DNA from: Acetobacteraceae bacterium
Lineage (GTDB): Bacteria > Pseudomonadota > Alphaproteobacteria > Acetobacterales > Acetobacteraceae
DNA: 38,034 nucleotides
NCBI GenBank assembly: GCA_027326105.1
Contig: DAHWFB010000104.1
Coordinates: 1-38,034 of the forward strand
Direction: 5' to 3'
Position numbers and translations under genes: made by a program. Under the pieces are notes generated by a model. The model saw only the letters and a program-made list of their open reading frames with translations, was not told the DNA's origin and searched no databases. Positions 22,443 to 37,561 of this stretch are shown piece after piece; position 1 is the first letter of the stretch, and each line of letters starts with the position of its first letter.

Positions 22443-23554
22443 ACGCTTCCCCGCCCGAGGGGCTTGCCCCGCCGCTCGCGGTGCTGCTCGAACTCACCCA
22501 CCGCTGCCCGCTGCGCTGCCCCTACTGCTCGAACCCGCTCGAACTCGAACGCGCGCGCGGCGAGCTCGCCACCGGGCAATGGACGCGGGTGCTGGACGAG
22601 GCTGCTGCGATGGGTGTCCTGCAGGTGCATTTCTCGGGGGGCGAGCCGACGGCGCGGACGGATCTCGAAGCCCTCGTCGCCCATGCCGCCGGGCGCGGGC
22701 TCTATACCAACCTCATCACCTCGGCGGTGCTGCTCGATCGGGCGCGGATCGCCGCGCTCGCGGCCGCCGGGCTCGACCATGTGCAGATCAGCTTCCAGGA
22801 TTCGGAAGCCGCCGGCGCTGACCGGATCGGCGGCTACCCCGGCGGGCACGCGAAAAAGCTTGCGGCGGCCCGGGAGGTGAAGGCGGCCGGGCTCGCGCTC
22901 ACCCTGAACGCGGTGATGCACCGGCAGAATCTCCACCATCTGCCGGAAATGATCGAGCTCGCCCTCGACCTTGGCGCCGGGCGGCTCGAAGTCGCGCACG
23001 TGCAGTATTACGGCTGGGGTCTGGCCAACCGGGCGGCGTTGATCCCGACCCGGACCCAGCTCGAAGCGGCGACCGCGACCGTCGAGGCGGCGCGGGTGCG
23101 GCACAAGGGCCGGCTCGTGATCGACTATGTGGTGCCGGACTATTACGCACGGCGGCCGAAGGCCTGCATGGGGGGCTGGGCACGGCAGTTCCTCAACATC
23201 TCCCCCTCCGGCAAGGTGCTGCCCTGCCATGCCGCGGAGAGCATTCCCGGGCTTTCCTTCGAGAACGTGGCCCAGCGTCCGCTTGCCGCGATCTGGGCCC
23301 AGTCGGAGGCATTCCAGCGCTTCCGCGGCACCGGCTGGATGCCCGAGCCCTGCCGCTCCTGCGCACGCGCCGAGATCGACTGGGGCGGCTGCCGCTGCCA
23401 GGCGTTTGCGCTCGCCGGCGACGCGGCGCTCACCGACCCCGCCTGCGCCCTGTCCCCCCACCATGGCGCGGTGCTGGCCCTCGCCGAGGCCGAGAGCGAG
23501 GCGGGGCGGGAGGCGTTCGTCTATCGCCAGATCGGGGCGCGCATCCCGGCCTGA
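22439..23554 (+). CDS. pqqE: PqqA peptide cyclase PqqE (radical SAM)
   Basis: This 371-residue radical SAM/SPASM enzyme forms the Glu-Tyr carbon-carbon bond in PqqA. The SAM-cluster motif CX3CX2C is at Cys23, Cys27 and Cys30 (HRCPLRCPYCSN). The FSGGEP SAM-binding segment is near residue 64. The C-terminal SPASM region contains Cys residues around GKVLPCHAA and CRSCARAEIDWGGCRC for the auxiliary clusters. ATG 22439 overlaps the pqqD stop. No pqqF/pqqG protease gene follows in this window. Confidence 0.97.
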   Translation: MNASPPEGLAPPLAVLLELTHRCPLRCPYCSNPLELERARGELATGQWTRVLDEAAAMGVLQVHFSGGEPTARTDLEALVAHAAGRGLYTNLITSAVLLDRARIAALAAAGLDHVQISFQDSEAAGADRIGGYPGGHAKKLAAAREVKAAGLALTLNAVMHRQNLHHLPEMIELALDLGAGRLEVAHVQYYGWGLANRAALIPTRTQLEAATATVEAARVRHKGRLVIDYVVPDYYARRPKACMGGWARQFLNISPSGKVLPCHAAESIPGLSFENVAQRPLAAIWAQSEAFQRFRGTGWMPEPCRSCARAEIDWGGCRCQAFALAGDAALTDPACALSPHHGAVLALAEAESEAGREAFVYRQIGARIPA

Positions 23555-23661: not shown

Positions 23662-24444
23662 ATGATGCTTTCGGCCGCGGCGGCGCGGGCGCCGTGGCGG
23701 CGGGCGGTGGCAGGGGCGCGCTGGCTGCGCGAAACCGTGGGGTTCTATCTGCTCTACGCGACCTTCGCGATCGGCTGCTTCCTGCCTGGACTGGTCTGCT
23801 TCCTGTTGTATCTGGTGCTGCCGTGCCGCCTCGGCGGGCCGATCGGGCGCGGCCTCATCGCGGGCTGGTTCCGCCTCTATCTGGCGCTGCTGCGCGGGGC
23901 CGGGCTGCTGGAGGATGATCTCTCCGCGCTCGATGGGCTGCGCTGCGAGCGAGGGCTCGTCGTCGTCGCCAACCATCCGTCGCTGCTCGACGTGGTGCTG
24001 CTGCTTTCGCGCCTGCCGCCCACCGTCTGCATCGCCAAGCCCGCGATCTGGAACAACCCGCTGCTCGGCGGGGGAGCGCGGTTGGCCGGATATCTGCCCA
24101 ACGATTCCCCTCTGCGGCTGGTGCGGCGGGCCCGGGCTGCCCTCGGCGCGGGCCGATGCCTGCTGATCTTCCCGGAAGGGACGCGGACCCGGCGGATCGC
24201 GGTGAACGGGTTCAAGCCGGGCTTCGCGCTGATCGCCCGCCAAGCGCGCGCGCCGGTGCAGACCGTCTTCATCGAGGCGGGCACGCCCTTCCTCGGAAAA
24301 TCCTGGCCGCTGCTGCGCCGCCCGCCGCTGCCACTGCGCTTTCGCGTCCGTCTTGGGCGGCGGTTCATGGTGAGCGAGGACCCGGCCGGCTTCACCGCGC
24401 GGATCGAGCGCTACTTCCGCGACGAGATGAGCGCCCCGCGGTGA
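23662..24444 (+). CDS. Lysophospholipid acyltransferase family protein (ApeD-like)
   Basis: This 260-residue membrane-bound acyltransferase has a hydrophobic hairpin at about residues 28-55, the catalytic NHPSLLD (His105-x4-Asp110) and FPEGTR (170-175), the PlsC superfamily active site. Sequences of this type with the KPAIWNNPLLGG block are found in aryl-polyene and related clusters, where they are thought to help attach the polyene to a lipid or glycolipid. ATG 23662 is followed by a second ATG at 23665; no strong ribosome-binding site is seen (GAGGGC). It starts 107 bases after pqqE and is 10 bases ahead of the GT2 gene, beginning the polyene region. Confidence 0.85.
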   Translation: MMLSAAAARAPWRRAVAGARWLRETVGFYLLYATFAIGCFLPGLVCFLLYLVLPCRLGGPIGRGLIAGWFRLYLALLRGAGLLEDDLSALDGLRCERGLVVVANHPSLLDVVLLLSRLPPTVCIAKPAIWNNPLLGGGARLAGYLPNDSPLRLVRRARAALGAGRCLLIFPEGTRTRRIAVNGFKPGFALIARQARAPVQTVFIEAGTPFLGKSWPLLRRPPLPLRFRVRLGRRFMVSEDPAGFTARIERYFRDEMSAPR

Positions 24445-24454
24445 CACCGGCTCC

Positions 24455-25204
24455 GTGACCGCCGCGCGTTTCCGGCCGCTGGTGCTGATCCCGAGCTACA
24501 ATACCGGGCCCCGCCTGGCGGAGACGGTGCGCGAGGCGCGCGCCCAAGGGGCTCCGGTGCTGGTGGTGATCGACGGCAGCGACGATGGTTCGGCAGATCT
24601 TCTGGAGCCTGCCCCGGGGCTCGAATTGCTGGTGCTGGCGGCCAATGGCGGCAAGGGGGCGGCGGTGGCGGCCGGGGCGCGGGCGGCGGGCGCGCGCGGC
24701 TTTACCCACCTGCTGACCCTGGACGCGGACGGGCAGCATCCGGCGACTGCCATCCCCGCCTTCCTCGCCGCCGCAGCCGCCGCGCCGACGGCGATGATCC
24801 TCGGCTGGCCGCTGTTCGGGCCGGAGGCGCCAGCGGCGCGGGTGCGGGGGCGGCGCATCTCCAACGCGCTGGCGAAGATCGAGGCGCCCGGCGGCGGCAT
24901 CGGCGATTGCCTGTTCGGGTTTCGGGTCTATCCCCTGGCGCCGTTGCTCGCGGTGCTTGCCGAGGGACGCTGGATGCGCGGCTTCGACTTCGACCCCGAG
25001 GTGGCGGTACGGCTGGCCTGGCGTGGGGTGCGCGCGGTCAATCTGCCGGCGCCCTGCCGCTACCTCGGCGCCGCGGAAGGCGGCGTGTCACACTTCCGCT
25101 ACGGGCGCGACAATCTGCTCCTCGCCGGGATGCACCTGCGCCTGCTCGCGGGCATGGTGCGCCGCCGCCTGCTCGGCCGCGGCGAGCGCCATCGGCAGCG
25201 ATAG
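24455..25204 (+). CDS. GT2 family glycosyltransferase of the aryl-polyene cluster
   Basis: This 249-residue protein starts at GTG 24455. The GT-A nucleotide-binding fold is visible: VLIPSYNTGPRLAETV, VVIDGSDDGSADLL, the donor/metal motif LDADGQH (Asp90-Asp92), and GFDFDPEVAVRLAWRG near residue 182. The C-terminal VSHFRYGRDNLLLAGMHLRLL matches the short GT2 proteins found in aryl-polyene and flexirubin-type clusters. It probably adds a sugar during building of the lipid anchor; the substrate is unproven. Its last 117 bases overlap, tail to tail, the 3' end of the deacetylase gene on the minus strand. Confidence 0.85.
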   Translation: MTAARFRPLVLIPSYNTGPRLAETVREARAQGAPVLVVIDGSDDGSADLLEPAPGLELLVLAANGGKGAAVAAGARAAGARGFTHLLTLDADGQHPATAIPAFLAAAAAAPTAMILGWPLFGPEAPAARVRGRRISNALAKIEAPGGGIGDCLFGFRVYPLAPLLAVLAEGRWMRGFDFDPEVAVRLAWRGVRAVNLPAPCRYLGAAEGGVSHFRYGRDNLLLAGMHLRLLAGMVRRRLLGRGERHRQR

Positions 25205-25984
25205 GGCGCGCAGGCCGCGGGCGGCGAGACAGTCGAGCAGGCGGGGCAGCACCTCGAGCACCACCGGCCGGCCCGCCGGGTCCGCCGCCGAGCGCCCGTC
25301 GTGCAGCATCAGAATGTCGCCGCTGGCGAGCCCGCGCGTCAGCCGGGCGAGGACCCGGGCGGGGTCGGCGTCGATCCCGTCCCGTCCGCGCCGCGTCCAG
25401 CCGGCGTAGGAGAGGCCGGCGCGGGCGAGCAGGAAGTCGAGGAAGGGGCTGCGCAGCCCGACCGGCGCGCGGAACAGGCCGGGGCTGGCGCCGGCGGCGA
25501 TGATGCTCTCCTGCGCGCGGGCGATTTCGCGTCCCATCGCGCGCGGGCCGTAGGCCGCGAAGAGCGCTGGGTGGGTTTCCGTATGGTTCTCGACGCTGTG
25601 GCCGGCGGCGAGGATCTCGCGCACCAGGGCGGGATGGGCGCGGGCGCGGACGCCGATCACGAAAAAGCTCGCCCGCGCCCCGGCGCGATCGAGCAGCGCG
25701 AGGACGCGCGGGGTCACCCCGGGCTCGGGTCCATCATCGAATGTCAGCGCCACCTCGCCGCGCCGGGCGCAGGGTTCGGGCAGGTTGGTGAGGTTGGGAC
25801 CGAGGGCGGTGCCACGCGGCATCAGCCCGGCCGCGCCCATCGCCAGATGGTCGGCGAGCACCACCCCGAGCAGAAAACGCCAGAGCGCAGGGTCGGCGGC
25901 GGCGGCGGCGAGCGCTGCGCCGTGCAGCCAGAGCGAGGCCCGCACCAACGGGGCCGGCCGGTAGCCGCGCAGGCGCGCGTTCAC
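25088..25984 (-). CDS. Polysaccharide deacetylase family protein (CE4)
   Basis: This 298-residue protein has hydrophobic segments at about 13-30 and 36-52, then a NodB/CE4 catalytic domain with all metal and acid-base motifs: TFDDGP (Asp83, Asp84), the metal-binding H-x3-H pair His134/His138 in ENHTETHP, FRAPVG (Arg172) and the final LMLHDG (His228). It should remove acetyl groups from a glycan or N-acetyl group, but its target here is unknown. GTG 25984 overlaps the stop of the upstream membrane-protein gene as GTGA. The last 38 residues lie inside the 3' end of the GT2 gene and look non-conserved. Confidence 0.87.
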   Translation of the reverse strand: MNARLRGYRPAPLVRASLWLHGAALAAAAADPALWRFLLGVVLADHLAMGAAGLMPRGTALGPNLTNLPEPCARRGEVALTFDDGPEPGVTPRVLALLDRAGARASFFVIGVRARAHPALVREILAAGHSVENHTETHPALFAAYGPRAMGREIARAQESIIAAGASPGLFRAPVGLRSPFLDFLLARAGLSYAGWTRRGRDGIDADPARVLARLTRGLASGDILMLHDGRSAADPAGRPVVLEVLPRLLDCLAARGLRALSLPMALAAAEQAAAHHAREQAQVHPGEEQIVAPVAEV

Positions 25985-26490
25985 CACCCCGCCCGGCGCG
26001 CGGGGAATGCGCGCAGCATCGCCCGTGGCCCGGAATGGGTGTGGCCGCGGTAGCGCAGCCGGCGCCAGAGATATTCGAGGCCGAACATCCCCAGTACCAG
26101 CGGCAGGTCGAATACGGTCACGAACGCCAGCCAGACCGGGCGCGGTGCGAGCGCGAAGAGCACCGCCGAGCCCAGCAACTGGGCGGCGAAAAAGATCGCC
26201 CAGGCCAGCGTCACCCGCCTGGTGTAGCGTTCGATCTCGGGCGGCAGCGGGCCGCGCAGGCGGCGGGCCATCGCGCTCGCCAGCGGCTCGCGCCCGGGCC
26301 GCAGAGTGCCCGCGAAGAGCAGGAAGAGGCCGCCGAAGACGAAGCCATGGGAGAGACCGGCCGCCACCGCGAGGCCGTCCCGCAGCGCGCTGCCGCCCCA
26401 GCCCGCCGCCGAGGCGAGATGGACGAGCAGCGGGGTGGCGAGTGCTGCCACCAGCACCGCCCAACCTTTCGCCCTTCCGCCAGCCGCCAT
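25981..26490 (-). CDS. COG4648-like membrane protein (ApeG-like)
   Basis: This 169-residue protein has about four to five membrane helices (KGWAVLVAALATPLLVHLA at about 8-26, LSHGFVFGGLFLLFAGTL near 50, LAWAIFFAAQLLGSAVLFAL near 100, LAFVTVFDLPLVLGMFGLEYLWRR near 125). The loop with IERYTRRVTLAW and the C-terminal RYRGHTH region match the COG4648 membrane proteins that accompany acyl carrier and AMP-ligase genes in aryl-polyene clusters. Their role is not established. GAGGGG precedes ATG 26490. It is divergent from the ACP gene and coupled to the deacetylase by a 4-base overlap. Confidence 0.8.
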   Translation of the reverse strand: MAAGGRAKGWAVLVAALATPLLVHLASAAGWGGSALRDGLAVAAGLSHGFVFGGLFLLFAGTLRPGREPLASAMARRLRGPLPPEIERYTRRVTLAWAIFFAAQLLGSAVLFALAPRPVWLAFVTVFDLPLVLGMFGLEYLWRRLRYRGHTHSGPRAMLRAFPARRAGW

Positions 26491-26517
26491 TTGCGCCCCT
26501 CTTCCCCGCCGCGCGGT

Positions 26518-26546
26518 TTGCAATGAAGCAGCCGCGCCAGTATGAT
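26518..26546 (+). promoter_or_regulatory. Promoter of the main aryl-polyene operon
   Basis: TTGCAA (26518-26523) and TATGAT (26541-26546) are separated by exactly 17 bases, in the 85-base gap between the divergent COG4648-like and ACP genes. A start near 26553 would leave a very short leader before GGGAGAAG at 26561-26568. This is among the best sigma-70 matches in the window and should drive the ten-plus-gene operon. Confidence 0.6.
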
Positions 26547-26575
26547 CCGAATGGGACTCTGGGAGAAGCGCCGCG

Positions 26576-26860
26576 TTGGAAAGCCCCGCTGATCTGCGTA
26601 CCGCAACCGGGTTCGAAATGGAACTCGCCGGGCTCATCGTTGAGGCTCTGCAACTCGAAGTAGCACCTGCCGCGATCCTCCCCACCGCGCCGCTGTTCGG
26701 GGACGGGTTGGGGCTCGATTCGATCGATGCGCTGGAATTGGCACTGGCCATCTCGCGCCGCTATGGCGTCGCCCTGAAGTCCGACGACGAGCGCAACGGC
26801 CGCATCTTTGCCTCGCTGCGGGCGCTCGCCGCCCATGTGGACGGCGAGCGCAGGCGCTGA
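26576..26860 (+). CDS. Acyl carrier protein of the aryl-polyene system
   Basis: This 94-residue ACP begins at TTG 26576 (GGGAGAAG at 26561-26568 is well spaced); an alternative ATG 26618 would give 80 residues, closer to the usual size. The phosphopantetheine attachment motif LGLDSIDALELA has its Ser at residue 49. The LFGDGLGLDSID context and the following ISRRYGVALK are characteristic of ApeE-type ACPs rather than fatty-acid AcpP. The growing polyene would be tethered here during elongation. Known clusters often carry two ACPs; only this one is present in the window. The ligase starts 12 bases downstream. Confidence 0.92.
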   Translation: MESPADLRTATGFEMELAGLIVEALQLEVAPAAILPTAPLFGDGLGLDSIDALELALAISRRYGVALKSDDERNGRIFASLRALAAHVDGERRR

Positions 26861-26872
26861 GCCGCCGCCACC

Positions 26873-28207
26873 ATGGCGCCCTCCTACCCGCTGATCGGCC
26901 GGGCAGCGGATGCGGTGCTGTTCCGCCATTCCGGCGGCGTGGTCACCGCCGCCGGCTTCCTAGCCGCCGCCGAGGATCTCGCCGCACGGTTGCCACCGGG
27001 CGCGCCGGTGATCGATCTCTGCCGGGACCGCGCCGCCTTCGCCGTCGCCTTCGCCGCCGCCCTGCTCGTGGACTCGGTCAGCCTGCTCGCGGGCGAGCGT
27101 TCGCCCGAGCGGCTGCGGTCGCTGGCCGAAGCTCATCCCGGCGCGGTCACGCTCTCCGAAGACGCCACGCCGCCTGGCCCGATGCCGCATCGGAGGGTCT
27201 GCCCCGACTGGTCCGGAACGCCGGTGGGGCCGATGCGCTGGCTGCAGGCGGAGCGATTGGCTGCAATCGTGTTCACGTCCGGCAGTACCGGGGAGCCGGT
27301 CGCGCATCGCAAGCGGTGGGGCGCGCTCGCGGTGCGCAGCATGGCGGCGGCGGCGCAGTTCGGGCTTGATCCCTGGCGGCCCGCCGAGGTGCTGGCGACG
27401 GTGCCGCCGCAGCACATGTACGGGTTCGAGACCTCGGTATTGCTGCCGCTGCACGCGCCGGCGGCGAGCTGGTCGGGGGCGGCCTTCTATCCCGATGATG
27501 TGCGCATGGCGCTCGCCGCCCTTCCCGCGCCCGTGCTCCTGGTCACCACACCCTTGCAATTGCGCGCGCTGCTGGATGCTCCCGTGACGGCCGGCGGTGA
27601 CGGGCCGGCGGGGGTGATTTCCGCGACCGCGCCCCTCGACCCGGCGCTCGCCGCCCGCGCCGAGGAGCACTGGGGCTGCTGGGTCCAGGAGATTTTCGGC
27701 GCCACCGAAGTAGGCTCGATCGCGAGCCGGCGCACCACGGCGGAGCAGGCGTGGACCCTCTATCCCGGGCTCGAACTGGCCGAGGAAGAGCAGGGCGCCA
27801 CGGTTGCCGGTCCCTTTGCGCCACCGACACCGCTCGCCGACCGCGTAGCACTGCTGCCGAGACGGCGCTTCCACCTGCTCGGACGGAGCAGCGACCTCGT
27901 CAAGCTGGGCGGGCGGCGAGCCTCGCTCTCCGGCCTCACCCGCATCCTGGCGGCGATCCCGGGCGTGGAGGATGGGGTGTTCCTCGCCCCCGACGATCTC
28001 GAGGCGCGGCCGAGCGCGCGGCTGATGGTGCTCGCGGTTGCCCCGCGGCGCAGCGCCGAGGAGATTCTGGCGGAGCTGCGCCCACGTGTCGATCCGGTGT
28101 TCCTGCCGCGCCGGGTGCAGCTGGTCGCGGCGCTGCCGCGCAACGAGCTCGGCAAGCTGCCGCGTGCCGCCCTGCTCGCGCTCGCTACCGGCGCGCGCGA
28201 TGGCTGA
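26873..28207 (+). CDS. Aryl/acyl-ACP ligase, AMP-binding family (ApeH-like)
   Basis: This 444-residue adenylate-forming enzyme has the phosphate loop IVFTSGSTGEP (about 132-142), EIFGATEVGSIA (the A5-type ATE motif, about 281), GRSSDLVKLGGRRAS (hinge region) and the catalytic Lys in LPRNELGKLPR (Lys428). It is shorter than typical acyl-CoA synthetases (about 500-550), as in ApeH proteins, which activate an aromatic acid (such as 4-hydroxybenzoate or coumarate) and load it on the ACP as the polyene starter. Specificity cannot be read. Its end overlaps the dehydratase start by 8 bases. Confidence 0.9.
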   Translation: MAPSYPLIGRAADAVLFRHSGGVVTAAGFLAAAEDLAARLPPGAPVIDLCRDRAAFAVAFAAALLVDSVSLLAGERSPERLRSLAEAHPGAVTLSEDATPPGPMPHRRVCPDWSGTPVGPMRWLQAERLAAIVFTSGSTGEPVAHRKRWGALAVRSMAAAAQFGLDPWRPAEVLATVPPQHMYGFETSVLLPLHAPAASWSGAAFYPDDVRMALAALPAPVLLVTTPLQLRALLDAPVTAGGDGPAGVISATAPLDPALAARAEEHWGCWVQEIFGATEVGSIASRRTTAEQAWTLYPGLELAEEEQGATVAGPFAPPTPLADRVALLPRRRFHLLGRSSDLVKLGGRRASLSGLTRILAAIPGVEDGVFLAPDDLEARPSARLMVLAVAPRRSAEEILAELRPRVDPVFLPRRVQLVAALPRNELGKLPRAALLALATGARDG

Positions 28208-28523
28208 GATCGGGGGCTGGCGCGAGGGCGGCTGCTTCGCCATCGACCCCGACCATCCCGCCCTCCCCGGCCATTTTCCGGGCCGGCCGCTGGTGCCGGG
28301 CGTGCTGCTGCTCGAGGAGGCGTTGGCGCGCATCCTTGCCGCCCTGCCGGGGCGGCGGCTCGCCGGGCTCGCGGTGGTGAAGTTCCTCCGCCCGGTCTGC
28401 CCGGGGGAGAGGCTGGCGCTCACCTGGGCGCCCGCGCCACCCGACGGGGTGGCCTTCGCGCTCGCGGTCGGCGGCGAGGCGGCGCTGCGCGGGCGGGCGC
28501 TGCTCGACGGGGCGGCGGCATGA
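28200..28523 (+). CDS. FabZ-like 3-hydroxyacyl-ACP dehydratase (ApeI-like)
   Basis: This 107-residue hotdog-fold protein has the FabA/FabZ catalytic pattern ALPGHFPGRPLVPGVLLLEEA, with His25 at the position of the FabZ active-site His and Glu39/Glu40 near the acidic partner. In studied aryl-polyene systems this type of dehydratase pairs with an ApeP-type hotdog subunit as a heterodimer; the ApeP-like partner is encoded at 34389-34844. ATG 28200 lies within the end of the ligase gene (8-base overlap) and the stop overlaps the next gene (ATGA). It removes water from each beta-hydroxy intermediate to set the conjugated double bond. Confidence 0.88.
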   Translation: MAEIGGWREGGCFAIDPDHPALPGHFPGRPLVPGVLLLEEALARILAALPGRRLAGLAVVKFLRPVCPGERLALTWAPAPPDGVAFALAVGGEAALRGRALLDGAAA

Positions 28524-29443
28524 ACGGAGGGACCGCGGCGTGGGCGCGCGAGCGCGAACGCGGCGGGCGGCTGGTTTTGCGGCTGATGATCCGGCTGAGC
28601 CTTGGGCTGGGGCAGCCGGTGGGGGAGGCGCTCTTGACCCCGATCACGCTCTGGTTCCTCGCCGCCTCGCCGGGAGCGCGCGCCGCCTCGCGCAGTTTCC
28701 TCGCCCGCGCGCTCGGGCGGCCGGCGCGGGCGGGGGAGGTGTGGCGGCATTTCCGCTGTTTCGCCTCGGTCATTCTCGACCGGGTCTTCCTGCTCGCCGG
28801 CCGCGGCGGAGGGTTCGATTTGCGGGTCAAGGGGCTGGCGGCGCTGGAGGCGGCGCTTGCGGGCGGCCGGGGCGCGCTGCTCCTCGGCTCCCATCTCGGC
28901 AGCTTCGAGATCCTGCTTGCCTTCGCCGCCGGCGCGCCGGCACCGGTGCGGGCGCTGATGTATCGCGCCAACGCGGGGGCACTGAGCGCGCTGCTCGCCG
29001 AGCTCGACCGCGCCCGTCCCGCCGGTACCATCGACATCGGCGCGCCGGAGGCGATGCTGGAAGTTCGCGAAGCGCTGGCGCGCGGCGAGATCGTCGCCCT
29101 GCTCGCCGACCGCAGCCCGGCAACGGACCGGCAAGTGCTGGTGCCGTTCCTTGGTGCTCCGGCCGCGTTTCCCACCGGGCCGTTCCTGCTCGCGGCGATC
29201 CTGGAAGCGCCGGTGCTGCTGTGTTGGGGCATCCGGCTCGGGCCGCGGCGATACCAGATCCGCTTCGAACCCTTCGCAGAGCGCCTGGTGCTGGAGCGGG
29301 GGGAGCGGGCGCCGGCACTGGAGGCGGTGGTCGCGCGCTACGCCGGGCGGCTCGCCGCCATGGCCCGGCGCCACCCCTGCAACTGGTTCAACTTCTTTCC
29401 CTTCTGGGAGCAGCCCCGCAATGCAGGGGGGCCGCCGCGGTGA
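28520..29443 (+). CDS. LpxL/HtrB-like lipid acyltransferase
   Basis: This 307-residue member of the LpxL/LpxM (lipid A late acyltransferase) superfamily has the catalytic HX4E motif in LLGSHLGSFEILLAF (His125, Glu130), followed by the IVALLADRSP segment and the FPTGPFLLAAILEAPVLLCW block. Such proteins occur in aryl-polyene clusters, in some combined with a GT2 domain; here the two are separate genes. The likely job is transfer of an acyl or polyenoyl group to the lipid anchor at the inner membrane. It overlaps its neighbours by 4 bases at both ends. Confidence 0.85.
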   Translation: MNGGTAAWARERERGGRLVLRLMIRLSLGLGQPVGEALLTPITLWFLAASPGARAASRSFLARALGRPARAGEVWRHFRCFASVILDRVFLLAGRGGGFDLRVKGLAALEAALAGGRGALLLGSHLGSFEILLAFAAGAPAPVRALMYRANAGALSALLAELDRARPAGTIDIGAPEAMLEVREALARGEIVALLADRSPATDRQVLVPFLGAPAAFPTGPFLLAAILEAPVLLCWGIRLGPRRYQIRFEPFAERLVLERGERAPALEAVVARYAGRLAAMARRHPCNWFNFFPFWEQPRNAGGPPR

Positions 29444-30063
29444 ACACGCCCGCTGGTCGGCGGAGCTTTGGCCGGGGGGTGCTGCTCGCGCTCGGAGCCA
29501 CCCTGCTGCACCCCTGGCCGGTCGCGGCGGACCCGGCCGTGCCCAGTGCAGGCGAGGCTTCGCTGCTCGCGACGATCATGGCAGGTCTGGCGCGGGTGGA
29601 GAGCGCGCGGGCGCGCTTCGTCGAGACCCGCACGCTCGCCGCGCTCGACCGGCCGGTGGCCAGCACCGGCCGGCTGATTTATCAGCGCGGGGTGCGGTTC
29701 GCCAAGATCACCGACCCGCCGCATGCCGAGCGGATGGTGGTGGCCGGCGGCACATTGACCCTTGCCATCGCGGGGACGGCACCGCGCCGGATCGCGCTTT
29801 CCTCCCACCCGCGGCTCGCCGCCATGATCGATGCCATCCGCGCGCCGCTCGCGGGCGATCTCGCGCTGCTGCGCTCCGACTGGCGGGTGAGCGCGCGCGG
29901 CACGCCCGCCCGCTGGCGGCTCGATCTCGTCCCGCGCGGTGCCGCGCTCGCCCGCTGGGTGCGGCGGGTGCGCATCGAGGGCGAGGGGGATGGGCTGCGC
30001 TCGGTGCTGACGATCTCCGCCAACGGAGACCGCGACCTGCTCGCCATCGCGCCGCTGCCGTGA
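29440..30063 (+). CDS. LolA-like outer-membrane lipoprotein carrier
   Basis: This 207-residue protein from GTG 29440 (GTGA overlapping the previous stop) has a signal peptide (residues 1-30, basic then hydrophobic, ending PVAADP) and a LolA-like fold. Visible features are LARVESARARFVETRTLAALDRPVASTGRLIYQ and the RRVRIEGEGDGLRSVLTI strands. Aryl-polyene clusters regularly encode a LolA homologue and an MMPL protein next to each other; together they are thought to carry the lipidated polyene to the outer membrane. The MMPL gene follows with a 4-base overlap. Confidence 0.85.
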   Translation: MNTPAGRRSFGRGVLLALGATLLHPWPVAADPAVPSAGEASLLATIMAGLARVESARARFVETRTLAALDRPVASTGRLIYQRGVRFAKITDPPHAERMVVAGGTLTLAIAGTAPRRIALSSHPRLAAMIDAIRAPLAGDLALLRSDWRVSARGTPARWRLDLVPRGAALARWVRRVRIEGEGDGLRSVLTISANGDRDLLAIAPLP

Positions 30064-32387
30064 GCGGGGCCGGCGCACGGCGGGCGCTGCCGCTGCTGTC
30101 GGCACTCGTGGGCGCCGCGCTGGTGCTCGCGCTCGCCCTGCGGGCGGCGCCGATGTCCACCGACATGGCGGATTTCCTGCCCCGCGCGGGTGGCGAGCGG
30201 CGGTTGCTCCTGGCGACGCTCACCTCCGGACCGGCGAGCCGGCTGGTGCTGGTCGGGATCGACGGCGCGCCGCCGGACCGGCTGGCGCGGCTGAGCCGAG
30301 GGCTCGCCGGGGCGATGGCCGCGAGCGGGTGGTTCTCGCTGGTCGCCAACGGAGCCGGTGGGCTCGGGCGGGCGGAGCGGCGGGCGCTGTTCCGCTACCG
30401 CTATCTGCTCGCGCCCGCCCCGGCGCGGGATTTCTCGGTGCCCGCCCTGCGGCGGGCTTTGCGCGGCGTGCGGCGCGGGTTGCTTTCCTCCGCCTCGCTG
30501 CTGGTCGCTCGCTATGGGTTGGCTGACCCGACCGGCGCATTTCCCGCGACCCTCGCCCGCCTGGCCGGCACTACGCGGCTGCGGCGGGTGGGAGGGGTGT
30601 GGTTCGCGCCGCGTGCCGCGCGGGCGCTGCTGGTCGCGCAAAGCCGCGCCGGCGCGCTCGACCCGCAGGCGGCGGCGGCGATGGAACGCTTCGTGCGGCG
30701 GGCGTTCGCCGGGCTCGGGCCGGGCGGGGCGCGGCTGCTGCTCGGCGGACCGGCGGTGCTCGGGGCGGCGGCTGCGCGGGTGGTGCGCGGGGATGTCGGG
30801 CGGCTGGCGTTGCTTTCCACCCTCGCGGTGCTCGCGCTCCTGTTCTGGCGCTTCCGCTCGCTTGCGGTGGTGGCGGCGATCGCGGTGCCGGTGATGCTCA
30901 GCGTCGCCGCCGCGACGCTGGCGCTCGCCCTCGCCTTCGGCACGGTTCCCGCCCTCGCCTTCGGCTTCGGCATGACCATGCTCGGGGTGAGCGTCGATTA
31001 TCCGGTGCTGCTGATCGGCCATCGCAAGCCGGGCGAGGCGGCGGCGGGAACCTTGCAGCGTATCGGCGCGGCGCTGGCGCTGACGGTCGCCGCCGCCGCG
31101 CTCGGGCTCTGCGGGATGGTGTTTTCGGGCTTTCCCTGGCTCGAGCAGCTCGGTCTCTTCGCCGTCGCCGGGCTGCTCGGTGCCTATGGGGCGACGCGGC
31201 TGCTGCTGCCGCGGCTGATCGTCGCCGCCGATCTCGCGCCGGTGCCGGCCGGCGATCCCGCCCGCTTCCTCGCCGCCGAGCGCTGGCGGCGGTTTCGCCG
31301 CCCCGCGCTCGCCGTTCCCGCCGCCGCCGCCCTGGTTCTGCTCATTCATCCGCCGCGTTTCGCGCAGAGCCTCGCCCGGCTGAGCCCGGTTCCCGCCGCC
31401 GCGCGGCGGACCGACGCGGCGCTGCGGGCCGCGCTCGGCGCGGCCGAACCCGGGGTGCTCGTGCTGGTGCGGGGCACCAGCGCCGAGGCGGTGCTGCGGC
31501 GGGAGGAGAGGCTCTCGCCGCTGCTCGCCGCCCTGCGCGCGCGCCATGCCATCACCGGGGCCGCGTTCGCCGCCCGCCTCCTGCCATCCGCGGCGCGCCA
31601 GCGCGCCCGGGCGGCGGCGCTGCCCGATGCGTCCACACTGGCCTCCCGGCTGGCCCGGGCGCGGCGCGGGCTGCACTTCCGCGCCGGTGCCTTCGCCCGC
31701 TTCCGTGCCGCGGTGGCGGCGAGCCGGGCGCTCGCGCCGCTTACTCCGGCGACCCTTCCCGGGCCGGTCCTGCGTGCCCGCCTTGCCCCATTGCTGTTCG
31801 CGCGCGGGGGGGTATGGAACGGGGCGATCCTGTTTTCCGGGGTTGCCGACCCGGCGGCGCTCGCCACGGCACTGGCCGGGCGGGCCGGCGTGCGGGTGGT
31901 CGAGGTCGCGCGCACGCTCGACGCGCTGGCGGCCTTCTATGCCCGCCGCGCCGGCGTGCTGCTCGGGCTCGGGGCGGGGGCGAGCCTGCTGCTTCTCGCC
32001 GCCGTGCTGCGGCGCGAGCGGCGGCGCTTGTTGCGGGTCGCGGGCAGCCTCGCGGCCGCCCTGCTGGTGACACTGGCCGTGCTCGACAGCGCGGGGGTGC
32101 GGATATCGTTCCTGCACATTCTGGCGCTGCAACTGGTGCTGGGCATCGGGCTCGATTATGCGCTCTTCTTCTCCCGCCCCCGACTGGACGCCGAGGAGCG
32201 TATCCGCACCCTGCGCACGCTGATCACCTGCAACGGCCTCACCCTCGCCGGCTTCGGCCTGCTCGCGTTCGCCCGCACCCCGCTGCTGCGCGAGATCGGG
32301 GTGACGGCGGGGGTGGGTGCGCTCGCCGCCATGGTCTTTGCCTTTCTCTTTGCCGGGCCGCCGCCGGGCGCCGAAGCAGCGCGATGA
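30060..32387 (+). CDS. MMPL-family (RND-like) exporter
   Basis: This 775-residue inner-membrane transporter starts at GTG 30060, overlapping the LolA-like stop. The arrangement is a first helix (about 8-30), a periplasmic domain (about 35-240), five helices (about 245-400) containing MLGVSVDYPVLLIGH, a further helix near 420, a second periplasmic domain (about 440-620), and five C-terminal helices with LGIGLDYALFFSR. The paired VDYP and LDYALFF motifs sit at the proton-relay positions of MMPL/RND proteins. The size and motifs match the exporters of aryl-polyene clusters (COG4258). It probably passes the polyene lipid from the inner leaflet to the LolA-like carrier. Confidence 0.92.
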   Translation: MSGAGARRALPLLSALVGAALVLALALRAAPMSTDMADFLPRAGGERRLLLATLTSGPASRLVLVGIDGAPPDRLARLSRGLAGAMAASGWFSLVANGAGGLGRAERRALFRYRYLLAPAPARDFSVPALRRALRGVRRGLLSSASLLVARYGLADPTGAFPATLARLAGTTRLRRVGGVWFAPRAARALLVAQSRAGALDPQAAAAMERFVRRAFAGLGPGGARLLLGGPAVLGAAAARVVRGDVGRLALLSTLAVLALLFWRFRSLAVVAAIAVPVMLSVAAATLALALAFGTVPALAFGFGMTMLGVSVDYPVLLIGHRKPGEAAAGTLQRIGAALALTVAAAALGLCGMVFSGFPWLEQLGLFAVAGLLGAYGATRLLLPRLIVAADLAPVPAGDPARFLAAERWRRFRRPALAVPAAAALVLLIHPPRFAQSLARLSPVPAAARRTDAALRAALGAAEPGVLVLVRGTSAEAVLRREERLSPLLAALRARHAITGAAFAARLLPSAARQRARAAALPDASTLASRLARARRGLHFRAGAFARFRAAVAASRALAPLTPATLPGPVLRARLAPLLFARGGVWNGAILFSGVADPAALATALAGRAGVRVVEVARTLDALAAFYARRAGVLLGLGAGASLLLLAAVLRRERRRLLRVAGSLAAALLVTLAVLDSAGVRISFLHILALQLVLGIGLDYALFFSRPRLDAEERIRTLRTLITCNGLTLAGFGLLAFARTPLLREIGVTAGVGALAAMVFAFLFAGPPPGAEAAR

Positions 32388-33586
32388 ACCCGATGCGCCC
32401 GCTCGCGATCTCCGCGCTCACCGCCGTCAGCGCCATGGGCCGCGGCGGGGCGGCGACGCTCGCCGCGCTCGTCGGGCGGAGGAGCGGGCTCGCGCCTTGC
32501 GACTTCGCCGGCGTGCGGGAAGGGTTCGTCGGCGCGGTCGGCGGGCTCGCGGAGCAGCCGCTGCCCGCCGGCCTCGGCCGCTTCGACTGCCGCAACCACC
32601 GGCTCGCCGCCATGGCGCTCGCGACCGACGGGTTCGCCGCCGCGGTGGCGGGGGCGGCCGCGCGCTACGGGGCGGGACGGGTCGCGGTGGTGCTCGGCAC
32701 CAGCACTTCGGGCATTCTCGCCGCCGAGCAGGCGTACCGGGCGCGCGAGACGCCGGGCGGGGCGCTGCCCGGGTGGTTCGACTATGCCGCGAGCCAGGAT
32801 ATCGGTGCGCTCGCGGTCTTCGTGCGCGCGGCGCTGGGGCTCGCGGGGCCCGGCTATGTCGTCTCCACCGCCTGCACCTCGAGCGCGCGGAGCTTCGTCG
32901 ATGGCGCGCGGCTGATCGCCGCCGGGGTGGTCGATGCCGCGGTGGTGGGCGGCGCGGACAGTCTCTGCGCCACCACGCTGCGCGGGTTCGCCGCGCTCGA
33001 GCTGGTCTCGCCCGGGCCGTGCCGGCCGCTGGATGCCGCGAGGTGCGGGCTTTCGATCGGCGAGGCGGCGGGCTTCGCCCTGCTCGAACGCAGGGACGGG
33101 CGGGCGGCGGCCGCGGCGGCGGAGCTGCTGCTGCTCGGCCATGGCGCGAGCAGCGACGGGCATCACATGTCCGCGCCCCACCCGGCGGGAGCGGGGGCGA
33201 TCGCGGCCATGCGCGGGGCGCTGGCGCGGGCGGGTCTCGCGCCCGCGGCGGTGGACTACGTCAATCTGCACGGCACCGGCACGCGGGCCAACGACGCGGC
33301 GGAAGACGGGGCGGTGTTCGCGGTGTTCGGCGCGCAAACCGCGTGCAGCTCGACCAAGGGCTGGTCCGGCCACACGCTCGGCGCCTCGGGGGTGCTGGAG
33401 GCGCTGGTCGCGGCGCTCGCGATCCGCGCCGGGCTGATGCCGGGCTGCCTCGGGGTCGAGCGGGTCGATCCCGCCTTCCGCTGCCGGGTGCTGACGGAGA
33501 ATGTTCGCGCCCCGGTGCGGCGGGTGATGAGCAACGCCTTCGGCTTCGGGGGCAGCAATTGCGCGCTCCTGTTCGGGGCGCCATGA
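32384..33586 (+). CDS. Beta-ketoacyl-ACP synthase (ApeO-like KS)
   Basis: This 400-residue condensing enzyme of the FabB/FabF superfamily has an intact triad: Cys164 in STACTSSA, His296 in LHGTGT and His330 in KGWSGHTLGASG, with Lys325 alongside. It is the elongating ketosynthase of the polyene machinery and would act with the chain-length-factor-like protein encoded directly downstream; such KS:CLF pairs are known in the E. coli/Xenorhabdus type aryl-polyene system. ATG 32384 overlaps the MMPL stop and its own stop overlaps the next start. It is the only catalytically complete ketosynthase in this window. Confidence 0.93.
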   Translation: MNPMRPLAISALTAVSAMGRGGAATLAALVGRRSGLAPCDFAGVREGFVGAVGGLAEQPLPAGLGRFDCRNHRLAAMALATDGFAAAVAGAAARYGAGRVAVVLGTSTSGILAAEQAYRARETPGGALPGWFDYAASQDIGALAVFVRAALGLAGPGYVVSTACTSSARSFVDGARLIAAGVVDAAVVGGADSLCATTLRGFAALELVSPGPCRPLDAARCGLSIGEAAGFALLERRDGRAAAAAAELLLLGHGASSDGHHMSAPHPAGAGAIAAMRGALARAGLAPAAVDYVNLHGTGTRANDAAEDGAVFAVFGAQTACSSTKGWSGHTLGASGVLEALVAALAIRAGLMPGCLGVERVDPAFRCRVLTENVRAPVRRVMSNAFGFGGSNCALLFGAP

Positions 33587-34392
33587 AGGCGGCGATCCTG
33601 AGCGCCTCGGTGTGGGGGCCGGGTCTGTGCGGCTGGGCGGCGGCGGCGCCGCTGCTGCGCGCCGGTGTGGTGGCGGCGGAGGGCGGGACCGTGCCGCCGC
33701 CGCCGGCACTCCTGCCCGCCAACGAGCGCCGGCGCGCCGGGCTGCTCACCCGGCTGGCGCTCGCGGTCGCGGTGGAGGCGGCGGCGGACGCGGGGATCGC
33801 GCCCGCCGCACTGCCCGCGGTGTTCGCGAGCGCGAGCGGGGACGGGGCGGTGGTGCATGATCTGCTGGTCACGCTGGCGGTCCCGGAGGGTGAAGTATCG
33901 CCCACCCGGTTCCACAATTCGGTGCACAACGCGCCGGCCGGCTACTGGTCGATCGGCGCCGGCGCCCAGGCCGAGACCGCGAGCCTCGGCGCCCATGACG
34001 AGACCGCCGCCGCCGCGCTGCTCGCCGCGGCAACCGCCGTTTGCGCCGAGGACGAGGCCTGGCTGATGGTGGTGGCGGATGCGCCGATGCCGGCCCCGCT
34101 CGCCATCGCCCGCCCCATCGGCCCCGCCTTCGCCGCCGCCCTGGTGCTGGCGCCGGAGGGAGGAACAGCGACGCCCGGGGCGGCCAGGCGCGTGGCGCTG
34201 GCACTCGATTTCATCCCCGGGGCGGCCGCGTGGGACCTGCCGCGGTCGCCGGGGCTCGCCGCACTCGCCGCCGCCACCCCGGCCGCGCGCCTGCTGCGGC
34301 TGCTCGAATCGCTTGCCGCCGGCCGTGCCGACCGGTTTTCGCTGCCCCTCGCCGGCGGCCGCCTCGCCGTCACGCTCGCGCCGCCGCCATGA
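33583..34392 (+). CDS. Beta-ketoacyl synthase-like chain length factor (ApeC-like)
   Basis: This 269-residue protein of the Ketoacyl-synt_2 type corresponds to the N-terminal part of a condensing enzyme. The characteristic motif FHNSVHNAPAGYWSIG (residues about 110-125) is intact, while no active-site Cys in a TACSS-like context is present. In studied systems such proteins form an inactive partner (chain length factor) of the elongating ketosynthase. ATG 33583 overlaps the KS stop (ATGA), consistent with stoichiometric production of a heterodimer. Its C-terminal third is Ala-rich and poorly conserved. Confidence 0.88.
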   Translation: MKAAILSASVWGPGLCGWAAAAPLLRAGVVAAEGGTVPPPPALLPANERRRAGLLTRLALAVAVEAAADAGIAPAALPAVFASASGDGAVVHDLLVTLAVPEGEVSPTRFHNSVHNAPAGYWSIGAGAQAETASLGAHDETAAAALLAAATAVCAEDEAWLMVVADAPMPAPLAIARPIGPAFAAALVLAPEGGTATPGAARRVALALDFIPGAAAWDLPRSPGLAALAAATPAARLLRLLESLAAGRADRFSLPLAGGRLAVTLAPPP

Positions 34393-34844
34393 CGGTCGAT
34401 CACGCGACGCTCGATCGCGCCGGGATCGCGGCACTCATTCCCCAGGCGGGGGCGAGCTGTCTCCTGGAGCGGCTGCTGCGCTGGGACGCGGGAAGCATCC
34501 TCTGCGCGAGCCGGACCCATCTCGACCCCGCCAACCCCTACCGGCGCGCGGGGACGCTCGGTGCGCTCGTGGGCATCGAATACGGGTTGCAGGCGGCAGC
34601 GCTGCACGGGGCGATGGCGGCGGGCGGACGGCGCCAGCCGGCAGGGCGGGTGGCGGCGCTGCGCGAGGTGCGAATCGCCCTCACCCGGCTCGATGACCCC
34701 GCGGTGGGCACGCTGGCGGTGACCTCGACGCTGGAAGCGGCAGAGGCGGCCGGACTCGCGTTCTCCTTCTGCCTTACCGCAGAGGACGGGCGCTTCCTGC
34801 TCGGCGGACGTGCCCTGATCGCGCTTCCCGGGGGGCGGGGATGA
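34389..34844 (+). CDS. Hotdog-fold dehydratase subunit (ApeP-like)
   Basis: This 151-residue protein has the COG4706 (ApeP) pattern: an N-terminal LIPQAGASCLLERLLRWDAGSI block, then SRTHLDPANPYRRAG followed by GALVGIEYGLQAAALHGAM, where His and the Glu of GIEY are the conserved residues. The first block usually reads P-H-x-G; here it is P-Q-A-G, so the first His is Gln, though that residue is probably structural. It is expected to form the dehydratase heterodimer with the FabZ-like protein encoded at 28200-28523. ATG and stop both overlap neighbours by 4 bases. Confidence 0.85.
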   Translation: MTVDHATLDRAGIAALIPQAGASCLLERLLRWDAGSILCASRTHLDPANPYRRAGTLGALVGIEYGLQAAALHGAMAAGGRRQPAGRVAALREVRIALTRLDDPAVGTLAVTSTLEAAEAAGLAFSFCLTAEDGRFLLGGRALIALPGGRG

Positions 34845-35560
34845 AGCGCGCGCTGGTCACCGGCGGCGCGAGCCCGCTGGGCGCTGCGATCTGCCGCCAC
34901 CTCGCCGCCGCCGGTTGCGAGGTGATCGTCCATGTCCATGCCGGGCGCGATCGCGGCGAAGCGCTCGCCGCCGAATTGCGCGCGGCCGGGGCGGTGGCGC
35001 AGGCGCTGGTACTTGATCTCACCGATGTCGCGGCGGCGGAGCGGGTGCTCGCGCCGCTGGCGGAGGAGCGGGCGGTGCAGATTCTCGTCCACAATGCCGG
35101 CACCCACCAGGATGTGCCGCTCGCGGGAATGGCGGAGTGGCAGTGGCGGCAGGTGATCGAGGTTTCGCTGACCGGGTTCTACGCCGTCACGCGCCCGCTG
35201 CTCCTGCCGATGATGGCGACCCGCTGCGGACGCATCCTGGCGATTTCCTCGGTCAGCGCGCTGCTCGGCAATCGCGGCCAGGTCAACTATGCCGCCGCCA
35301 AGGCCGGGCTGATCGGGGCGGTGAAGGCGCTCGCGCGCGAGGTGGCGAGCCGGGGGGTGACGGTGAACGCCATCGCCCCCGGGATCATCGCCTCGCCCGC
35401 GGTGGAGGCCGCGCTTGATTCCCGCCGGATCGCCGAGCTGGTGCCGATGCGCCGTGCCGGGCGGCCCGAAGAGGTCGCCGCGCTGGTGGGCTTTCTCTGC
35501 TCCGACGCGGCGGGATATATTACCGGCCAGACGGTTTCGATCAACGGCGGGATGGCGTGA
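34841..35560 (+). CDS. 3-oxoacyl-ACP reductase, FabG/ApeQ-like
   Basis: This 239-residue short-chain dehydrogenase has the cofactor motif VTGGASPLGAAI near residue 6, LVHNAGTHQD (NAG, about 83), and an intact catalytic Ser-Tyr-Lys in ISSVSALLGNRGQVNYAAAKAG (about 138-155). The C-terminal YITGQTVSINGGMA is typical of FabG. It would reduce each beta-keto intermediate of the polyene chain with NADPH. ATG 34841 overlaps the ApeP-like stop; the stop overlaps the next GTG. In known clusters the KR gene is commonly followed by a further ketosynthase (ApeR); here a flavoprotein follows instead. Confidence 0.93.
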   Translation: MKRALVTGGASPLGAAICRHLAAAGCEVIVHVHAGRDRGEALAAELRAAGAVAQALVLDLTDVAAAERVLAPLAEERAVQILVHNAGTHQDVPLAGMAEWQWRQVIEVSLTGFYAVTRPLLLPMMATRCGRILAISSVSALLGNRGQVNYAAAKAGLIGAVKALAREVASRGVTVNAIAPGIIASPAVEAALDSRRIAELVPMRRAGRPEEVAALVGFLCSDAAGYITGQTVSINGGMA

Positions 35561-36894
35561 GCGCGTCGTTGCCACGAGGTTCGCGCTGGCAGCGCATGGA
35601 GCGGGGACGGATGGACGAGCGGGCGGAAACCGGTGCTGGCGCCGAGCCTTGCGATGTCGCCATCATCGGGGGAGGGCCGGCGGGTTCGACCGCGGCGGCA
35701 CTGCTCGCCGGACGCGGGGTCGCGGTGCGGCTGTTCGAGAAGGAGGCCCATCCGCGCTTTCATATCGGGGAGTCGCTACTGCCGCGCAACCTCGCCGTGC
35801 TCGATCGCCTCGGGCTGCGCGAGCGGGTGGCGGCGATCGGGGTGCTGAAGCCGGGGGCGGAGTTCGTTTCCGACGAAACCGGCGAGCGGGTGTCCTTCTG
35901 CTTCGCCAATTCGCTGCATCAGGACTACACCTTCAGTTACCAGGTGCGGCGCGCGGAGTTCGACGCCATGCTCTTCGCCCATGCCCGCGCGCAGGGGGCG
36001 CGGCTGCACGAGAACACCAGGGTGACCGAGGTGGCATTGCCGCAAGCGGGTGGGCGAGGGCTGGTGACGGTGCGCGATGGCGCCGGCGCGACCGCGCGCT
36101 TCGCCCCCCGCTTCGTGCTCGATGCCTCCGGGCGCGATACCTTCCTCGCCGGCCGGCTGGGCCTCAAGCAATCGAACAAGGTCATCAACAACGCCGCGGT
36201 GTTCGCCCATTTCCGCGGCGTCGCCCGCCGCGCCGGCGCGACCGAGGGGTATATCAGCGTCCATCTCTCCGAGGATGGGTGGTTCTGGATGATTCCGCTG
36301 CCCGAGGGGGTGATGAGCGTGGGTTTCGTCGGCACCCAGGCGGCGTTCAAGCGGCGGTCGGGCCCGGTCGAGAGCCTGTTCCTGGAACGGCTGCGGACGA
36401 GCCCGACGGTTGCCGCGCGCATGGCCGGGGCCGAGCGCATCTCCGACATCCGCACCGCCGCCAACTACTCCTACCGCGCCCGCCGGGCCTGGGGGGAGGG
36501 CTATTTCCTGATGGGTGACGCCTTCGCCTTCCTCGATCCGGTGTTTTCGAGCGGGGTGCTGCTGGCGATGACCGCGGGCGAGTTCGGCGCCGACATCGCC
36601 ACCGAGTGGATGGCAGAGCCCGCCCGCGGGCGCGCCGCGGCGCGCGCGGCCGAGCGCTGGCTGCACCGGGCGATGGCGCGCATCTCCTGGCTGATCTACC
36701 GCATCAACGACCCGGTACTGCGGCGGCTGTTCCTGTCGCCGTCCAACGCGCTCTACATGCGCGACGCCATCATCTCCATCCTTGGCGGCAATCTCGCGCC
36801 CGACCTGCGCTCGGAGCTTCCCTATCTCGCCTTCAAGGCGATCTATCACGCCCACGCGCTGGCCGGCCGCCTGGGGCGGCACCAGGCTGCCTGA
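35557..36894 (+). CDS. FAD-dependent halogenase-like oxidoreductase
   Basis: This 445-residue flavoprotein starts at GTG 35557, overlapping the KR stop (an ATG at 35596 or 35614 is possible). The FAD-binding GGGPAGS is at 38-44 and the HIGESLLP segment at about 69-76. Three features specific to flavin-dependent halogenases are present: Lys98 in GVLKPGAEF, equivalent to the catalytic Lys of tryptophan and phenolic halogenases; WFWMIP at 242-247 (the WxWxIP motif); and FLDPVFSSG at 325-333 (the FxxPxxSxG motif). Halogenating flavoproteins are known in xanthomonadin (brominated aryl-polyene) clusters. The motifs also occur in some non-halogenating relatives, so the activity is inferred. The likely site is the aryl head. 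Confidence 0.85.
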   Translation: MSASLPRGSRWQRMERGRMDERAETGAGAEPCDVAIIGGGPAGSTAAALLAGRGVAVRLFEKEAHPRFHIGESLLPRNLAVLDRLGLRERVAAIGVLKPGAEFVSDETGERVSFCFANSLHQDYTFSYQVRRAEFDAMLFAHARAQGARLHENTRVTEVALPQAGGRGLVTVRDGAGATARFAPRFVLDASGRDTFLAGRLGLKQSNKVINNAAVFAHFRGVARRAGATEGYISVHLSEDGWFWMIPLPEGVMSVGFVGTQAAFKRRSGPVESLFLERLRTSPTVAARMAGAERISDIRTAANYSYRARRAWGEGYFLMGDAFAFLDPVFSSGVLLAMTAGEFGADIATEWMAEPARGRAAARAAERWLHRAMARISWLIYRINDPVLRRLFLSPSNALYMRDAIISILGGNLAPDLRSELPYLAFKAIYHAHALAGRLGRHQAA

Positions 36895-36904
36895 GCCGCG
36901 CGGG

Positions 36905-37561
36905 GTGGGCGATGCGAGCGCCGCGCTCGCCCGCACCGCGGCGCGCTACCGCGCGACCGACCGGTTCTCGCGACACTATGTTGCCGCCAAGCTCCGCCGC
37001 GACCCGGTCTACGCCGCGCTCCTGGCGCTCGCCACCGAAGCCCCCCTCGGCGAGGTGCTCGACCTCGGCTGCGGACGCGGACAGGTTGCCCTCGCACTGC
37101 TCGAGGCCGGGCTGGCGAGCGCGGTGCAGGGGTTCGACTGGCCCGGCGAGGCGCTCACCGCCGCCGCCCGCGCCGGCACCGGCCTGCCGTTTCGCGCGGT
37201 GCCCGCGGATCTCGCCACACTTGCGGTCCTGCCGGCGGCCGATACCGTGCTGTTCATCGATGTGCTGTACCAGATCGAGGAGTCTGCGCAGGCACGGCTG
37301 CTCGCACTGGCGGCCGCGGCGGCGCGGCGGCGGGTGCTGGTCCGTACTCTCGACCCGGGGCACGGGGCGCGCAGCAGCTTCACCCTGGCGCTCGAACTCC
37401 TCGGGCGGCGGTTCTGGCCGAATACCGGGGAGACGGTGCGGCCGGTGCCGCCGCGCGCGATCGCGGCGCAACTGGAGGCGGCAGGCTTCACGGTGACGAT
37501 TTCGCCCTGTTGGCGCGGAACCCCGTTCGCCAACGTGCTGCTCGACGCGCGGCGGGAGTAG
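36905..37561 (+). CDS. SAM-dependent methyltransferase (class I)
   Basis: This 218-residue protein starts at GTG 36905, 10 bases after the halogenase-like gene; the ribosome-binding site is weak, so the start could be a few codons different. Motif I VLDLGCGRGQVALALLEAG (about 51-69) is the SAM-binding Rossmann signature, followed by the acidic GFDWPGEAL segment and the VLFIDVLYQIEE strand/helix. An N-terminal YRATDRFSRHYVAAKLRRDP segment is typical of the methyltransferases seen in aryl-polyene clusters, which may O-methylate or C-methylate the aryl head. It is the last gene of the operon. Confidence 0.85.
   Translation: MGDASAALARTAARYRATDRFSRHYVAAKLRRDPVYAALLALATEAPLGEVLDLGCGRGQVALALLEAGLASAVQGFDWPGEALTAAARAGTGLPFRAVPADLATLAVLPAADTVLFIDVLYQIEESAQARLLALAAAAARRRVLVRTLDPGHGARSSFTLALELLGRRFWPNTGETVRPVPPRAIAAQLEAAGFTVTISPCWRGTPFANVLLDARRE

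Follow-up and report, generated by a model that had tools for sequence, protein, structure and literature searches.

The stretch of DNA analysed here, hereafter the window, is the 38,034-nucleotide contig DAHWFB010000104.1 of an Acetobacteraceae bacterium (assembly GCA_027326105.1), taken in its entirety (contig C79) from a draft genome of 2.55 Mb that is 82% complete. Between positions 23662 and 37561 it carries 16 closely packed, intact open reading frames (ORFs), mostly translationally coupled, which we identify with high confidence as an apparently complete xanthomonadin/arcuflavin-type cluster for the biosynthesis and export of an aryl polyene (APE), and which include a flavoprotein related to flavin adenine dinucleotide (FAD)-dependent halogenases. 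Profile searches against Pfam and NCBIfam gave family support for 14 of the 16 proteins. No Pfam match was obtained for the other two, a hotdog protein (34389-34844) and a membrane protein (25981-26490), whose identity is taken from orthology and position in related loci and not from a profile match. A first-pass annotation of this DNA had named this gene set at these positions, and with 16 of 16 ORFs intact and family matches for nearly all of them, the gene content and family memberships are established; the cluster holds one acyl carrier protein (ACP), not two. The ketosynthase (KS) and the flavoprotein of the window cluster with named Acetobacteraceae sequences, and this, not a marker-gene tree, is the basis of the family assignment. 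The features are listed below by position and strand; downstream of the last gene only 473 bases remain before the contig ends.

23662..24444, + strand: PlsC-type (lysophospholipid) acyltransferase, arcD/ApeD-like (PF01553, 2e-17), kept beside the glycosyltransferase gene in related clusters; probably attaches the polyene to a lipid anchor
24455..25204, + strand: family 2 glycosyltransferase (GT2), arcE-like (PF00535, 6e-17), a conserved neighbour
25088..25984, - strand: polysaccharide deacetylase, arcN-like (PF01522, 3e-26), with TFDDGP and HxxxH motifs; annotated likewise in Roseomonas and Azospirillum clusters
25981..26490, - strand: small membrane protein in the ApeG/COG4648 position, with homologs between the ACP and ligase genes in loci L037 and L044
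26618..26860, + strand: ACP with a GLDSIDALE motif (PF00550; NF006617, 111 bits against a cutoff of 70); an alternative, earlier TTG start is possible at 26576
26873..28207, + strand: adenosine monophosphate (AMP)-forming aryl-ACP ligase, ApeH/ArcT-like (PF00501, 3e-14; best NCBIfam match TIGR02372, 4-coumarate ligase, partial); by its sequence the enzyme that loads the aromatic starter, the substrate being predicted
28200..28523, + strand: hotdog 3-hydroxyacyl-ACP dehydratase, FabA/ApeI-like (PF07977, 2e-6; ApeI-like PF22818, 5e-5, below its cutoff)
28520..29443, + strand: lipid-A-type acyltransferase, arcR-like (PF03279, 5e-11)
29440..30063, + strand: LolA-like periplasmic carrier (PF19574 LolA_3, 1.5e-24; NCBIfam LolA2_flexi, weak)
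30060..32387, + strand: MMPL/RND-type exporter, ApeM-like (PF03176, 8e-14)
32384..33586, + strand: KS, ApeO-like, with TACTSS active site, HGTGT and GHTLG (NF006618, Protein Data Bank (PDB) matches and tree)
33583..34392, + strand: chain-length-factor (CLF)-like protein (half-CLF), ApeC-like (PF13723, 2e-27; PDB 7f28_A and 6qsp_B)
34389..34844, + strand: second hotdog dehydratase, ApeP-like, with orthologs in the same place, one of them annotated as hydroxymyristoyl-ACP dehydratase, and a weakly ApeP-like Xanthomonas ortholog
34841..35560, + strand: ketoreductase (KR), FabG/ApeQ-like (PF13561, 3e-49; NF004200 above cutoff)
35611..36894, + strand: FAD-dependent halogenase-family flavoprotein, XanB1/ArcA-type (PF04820, 99 bits; PDB matches, conservation and co-occurrence with the KS)
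36884..37561, + strand: class I S-adenosylmethionine methyltransferase, arcM-like (PF13489, 2e-8), 48% identical to its Roseomonas cluster counterpart and 34% to that of Azospirillum; the start is uncertain and is likely to be the GTG at 36905; probably O-methylates a ring hydroxyl

The identification of the locus is carried above all by the KS and its partner. The KS scores 489 bits on NCBIfam NF006618/PRK09185 (cutoff 407), and its closest PDB chains are 6qsp_A and then 7f28_B, while the CLF-like protein is closest to the partner chains of the same two structures, the first of which we take to be the Xenorhabdus ApeO/ApeC pair. In a KS tree with the genome's own FabF and Listeria FabF as references, the window KS grouped with all KS of related clusters and with 6qsp and 7f28, apart from FabF, with support of 100/99. 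Alongside this ApeO-type KS and ApeC-type half-CLF, the locus holds the other components by which APE clusters are recognized, namely a dedicated ACP with an AMP-forming aryl ligase, a KR with two hotdog dehydratases (the second by orthology and position only), an MMPL exporter, a LolA-like carrier and acyltransferases. PDB matches, tree and family assignments together bear out the earlier claim of an aryl-polyene type II polyketide synthase cluster in Acetobacteraceae; the outcome that had been set beforehand as counting against it, a KS within a fatty-acid clade, was looked for in the tree and not found.

Comparison with named systems places the cluster among the xanthomonadin and arcuflavin relatives. 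The APE_Ec and APE_Xd clusters share with the window the ligase, ACP, ApeO/ApeC pair, ApeI/ApeP, ApeQ, LolA and MMPL proteins, but they lack a flavoprotein and have in addition two ACPs, the thioesterase ApeK, the LolB-like ApeN, a third KS (ApeR) and the lipoprotein ApeA, which the window is without. Profile searches found none of the markers of the APE_Ec subtype (second ACP, ApeK, ApeR, ApeN; as defined in PMC8253772) among the 16 window genes, and the presence of one ACP, with neither a thioesterase nor a third KS, therefore indicates the xanthomonadin/arcuflavin subtype and not that of E. coli (PMC8253772); the single ACP is accompanied, as in that subtype, by a XanB1/ArcA-type flavoprotein. 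The xanthomonadin (pig) cluster of Xanthomonas likewise has a single ACP, a ligase, an MMPL exporter, acyltransferases and a flavoprotein in the XanB1 place, but differs in having XanB2, in the second, distant flavoprotein of its Xanthomonadaceae relatives and in its brominated product. The arc (arcuflavin) genes of Azoarcus sp. BH72 are listed as including a halogenase, methyltransferase, polysaccharide deacetylase, exporter, LolA, acyltransferases, dehydratases, AMP ligase and ACP (PMC3949708), and they match the window also in glycosyltransferase, KR, CLF-like protein and KS; unlike the window, they occupy two loci, include XanB2 (arcB), an outer membrane protein and an antiporter, and feed a dialkylresorcinol hybrid. 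Since deacetylase, methyltransferase and membrane-protein genes are found in arc, the window copies are not additions to the known system. The deacetylase/membrane pair, proposed at first as such an addition, has its counterparts in arcN and the ApeG-position protein, and that part of the proposal was dropped, whereas the part concerning a flavoprotein with halogenase motifs stood, with all tested signatures present.

Neither is the combination peculiar to this genome. In a sample of 200 genomes of the same family, the KS was found in 74, the flavoprotein in 72 and both in 71, leaving three genomes with a KS and no flavoprotein and one with the reverse, where the KS is truncated by the edge of a contig. 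Of the 71 genomes that have both, 43 carry the two genes on one contig with no more than 20 kb between them; in several others, whose contigs are complete or long, a great distance separates the genes and still they co-occur, and the neighbours of such unlinked flavoprotein genes (family loci L026 and L049) are ordinary housekeeping genes that give no functional hint. Linked clusters are found in Acetobacter cibinongensis, Acidomonas methanolica, Bombella intestini, Belnapia moabensis and Pseudoroseomonas, on a plasmid of Roseomonas haemaphysalidis (where the flavoprotein is annotated as a tryptophan 7-halogenase) and on an Azospirillum plasmid, and the genes follow the same order in many members of the family, among them the Roseomonas, Acetobacter, Bombella and Belnapia loci, as well as in the Azospirillum record. 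A survey published in 2021, which covered 141 type strains of the Acetobacteraceae, had already reported APE clusters in 44% (19/43) of acidophilic and 29% (28/96) of acetous species, defined by their KS and containing, besides a ligase and transporters, a dehydrogenase and "a probable halogenase" (PMC8776678). These belong to the same family and have the same gene types, and the window adds one genome to them. Conservation and co-occurrence are thus established, an APE cluster with a halogenase-family flavoprotein is a known combination in Acetobacteraceae, and the initial impression that it was unusual for, or unique in, this lineage does not hold.

By its signatures and predicted fold the flavoprotein is a genuine member of the FAD-dependent halogenase family, with an activity that is predicted. 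It has a GGGPAGS FAD site, the catalytic K80, and the motifs WFWMIP (224-229) and FLDPVFSSG (307-315); an alignment-column check showed that 99 of 99 relatives retain the catalytic lysine, WxWxIP and FxDPxFSxG, and the same hallmark residues occur in the reference halogenases CmlS, CndH, ChlB4, Mpy16 and FasV. Solved structures matched by its sequence are FasV, ChlB4, CmlS, Mpy16, CndH and PltA, and a fold search with an AlphaFold model (built from 14 natural sequences; pLDDT confidence score 90) placed FasV, PltA, ChlB4, the functionally unassigned Cytophaga hutchinsonii flavoprotein 3nix and Bmp2 on top, with TM-scores of ~0.81-0.86. PltA, ChlB4, Mpy16, Bmp2, FasV, CmlS and CndH thus share fold, catalytic lysine and both motifs with the window flavoprotein, but identity to these enzymes is about 26-32% over the aligned region, and the APE flavoproteins form a separate clade on long branches of their own, whose activity is predicted from sequence and fold. 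The closest flavoprotein found, at 65% identity, lies beside APE genes (locus L062) in a metagenome-assembled genome labelled Deltaproteobacteria/Myxococcota, through either transfer or a mis-binned contig, and Paraburkholderia flavoproteins (loci L056 and L058; 58-59% identical to the window's) nest within the Acetobacteraceae/Roseomonas clade, which suggests gene transfer. Tandem copies, which may be subfunctionalised, occur in two small genomes of the same family (G161:C25:79362-81988 and G198:C17:12425-15050).

Several Xanthomonadaceae loci hold two flavoproteins, the first type 43-48% identical to that of the window and lying between the ACP gene and that of the chorismatase XanB2, in the XanB1 place, and the second ~27% identical and lying beyond the ketoreductase gene; the window protein is of the first, XanB1/ArcA type. 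Among beta- and gammaproteobacteria, many loci have the first-type gene directly before that of XanB2, which is the arcA-arcB order of Azoarcus, and since XanB2 makes 3- or 4-hydroxybenzoate, this adjacency points to the aryl head as the site of action. XanB1 has been labelled a "putative reductase/halogenase" in a cluster for which a separate halogenase is listed (PMC3838355), and the literature found gives it this annotation and no assigned function. The second, distant flavoprotein (25-29%), which has ~550 residues and carries the motifs WxWxIP and LDPFYSPGSDF, was seen in Xanthomonadaceae and Hydrogenophaga APE loci (L106, L114, L078, L081, L102, L118, L103, L104 and L116) and is a candidate for the enzyme that in fact brominates xanthomonadin.

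We lean, with some reserve, towards the prediction that the window flavoprotein halogenates the pigment pathway, at the electron-rich aryl end. Only a little less credible is that the APE cluster is real while the flavoprotein, having kept the halogenase fold, acts as a flavin monooxygenase, e.g., a ring hydroxylase, or tailors the aryl head by some other redox reaction. Azoarcus BH72, the only chemically studied strain with a halogenase-annotated gene in the XanB1/ArcA place, has that gene (arcA) beside XanB2 and yet makes a non-brominated pigment, C41H52O4; the distant flavoprotein so frequent in Xanthomonadaceae clusters could be the brominase; the APE clade stands on long branches away from tested halogenases, with about 28-32% identity to them; and the authors of the work on the Lysobacter pigment required a ring hydroxylase to which no gene was assigned. 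Lysobacter enzymogenes, which has no halogenase, makes a non-brominated pigment. Against this, a relaxed function would not require that the catalytic lysine and both motifs stay unchanged throughout the 99 relatives, and every top sequence or fold match of known activity is a halogenase. The placing of arcA in this clade, moreover, relies on gene order, and bromide may have been lacking from the medium, so that the Azoarcus case weakens the halogenation prediction and does not refute it. We also put forward, tentatively, that XanB1/ArcA-type flavoproteins form a clade of the halogenase family with a function of its own, acting in a conserved step at the aryl starter or the polyene end. They would be either a second halogenase, by which dibrominated xanthomonadins receive their other halogen, or an oxygenase that does not halogenate and yet keeps all the halogenase residues.

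As the Azoarcus pigment weighs against the halogenation step, so the supply of the aromatic starter weighs against the pathway as a whole. The cluster contains no gene for the starter acid, a search of the genome (82% complete) yielded no UbiC, and the XanB2 profile TIGR04444 found, in the same incomplete genome, one distant protein on contig C19, at 44.7 bits and below cutoff. This protein (L127, 13372-13911) is XanB2/FkbO-Hyg5-like, with the XanB2 motif EIEGV at its end, and has no Pfam match; it is a candidate source of hydroxybenzoate. The missing starter supply and the small, incomplete draft assembly could point to decay or silencing of the cluster in this organism, which we consider very unlikely with all 16 ORFs intact and coupled and the active-site motifs conserved. 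Least credible of all is that the KS, CLF and their neighbours serve fatty-acid or phospholipid metabolism: the KS, KR and dehydratases do resemble those of fatty-acid synthase at family level, but the KS joins ApeO (6qsp) and 7f28 away from the genome's own FabF, which is distinct (contig C10), the cluster holds a CLF and an aryl ligase, and its LolA/MMPL/deacetylase context matches the arc and xanthomonadin clusters, so that this reading is largely refuted by the PDB matches and the tree and was rejected.

The individual catalytic steps, the product and, above all, halogenation are what we infer for the pathway. In this scheme the ligase would load 3- or 4-hydroxybenzoate on the ACP and the KS and CLF would extend it with malonyl units, with reduction by the KR and dehydration by the two hotdog enzymes giving a conjugated polyene. 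Ring O-methylation is most likely the task of the methyltransferase, and a lipid or sugar anchor would be built or attached by the acyltransferases, GT2 and deacetylase. The MMPL and LolA-like proteins would carry the finished pigment to the outer membrane, in which it would act as a quencher of light and radicals. As a regular member of this pathway, the flavoprotein is most likely a halogenase acting on the aryl end of the free starter, the carrier-bound starter or the finished polyene.

Immediately upstream of the pigment cluster, at 20501-23554, Pfam matches identify pqqB, pqqC, pqqD and pqqE, in agreement with the first-pass annotation's description of the organism as a producer of pyrroloquinoline quinone. 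In the contiguous related APE loci that were examined, pqq genes never adjoin the cluster, and the neighbourhood seen here therefore looks incidental.

These results confirm a xanthomonadin-type pigment system, of a kind that is yellow, light-protective and membrane-located, in relatives of the acetic acid bacteria, and they show that within the family the synthase is almost always accompanied by the halogenase-like enzyme (71 of the 74 genomes with the KS). XanB1/ArcA-type flavoproteins travel with APE synthases across much of the Proteobacteria, and whether this enzyme clade halogenates the pigment or acts otherwise is a question that can be tested in cultured Roseomonas, Acidomonas and Acetobacter. 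If these flavoproteins are indeed a distinct clade, the Acetobacteraceae would make undescribed polyenes that are chlorinated, brominated or ring-oxidised.

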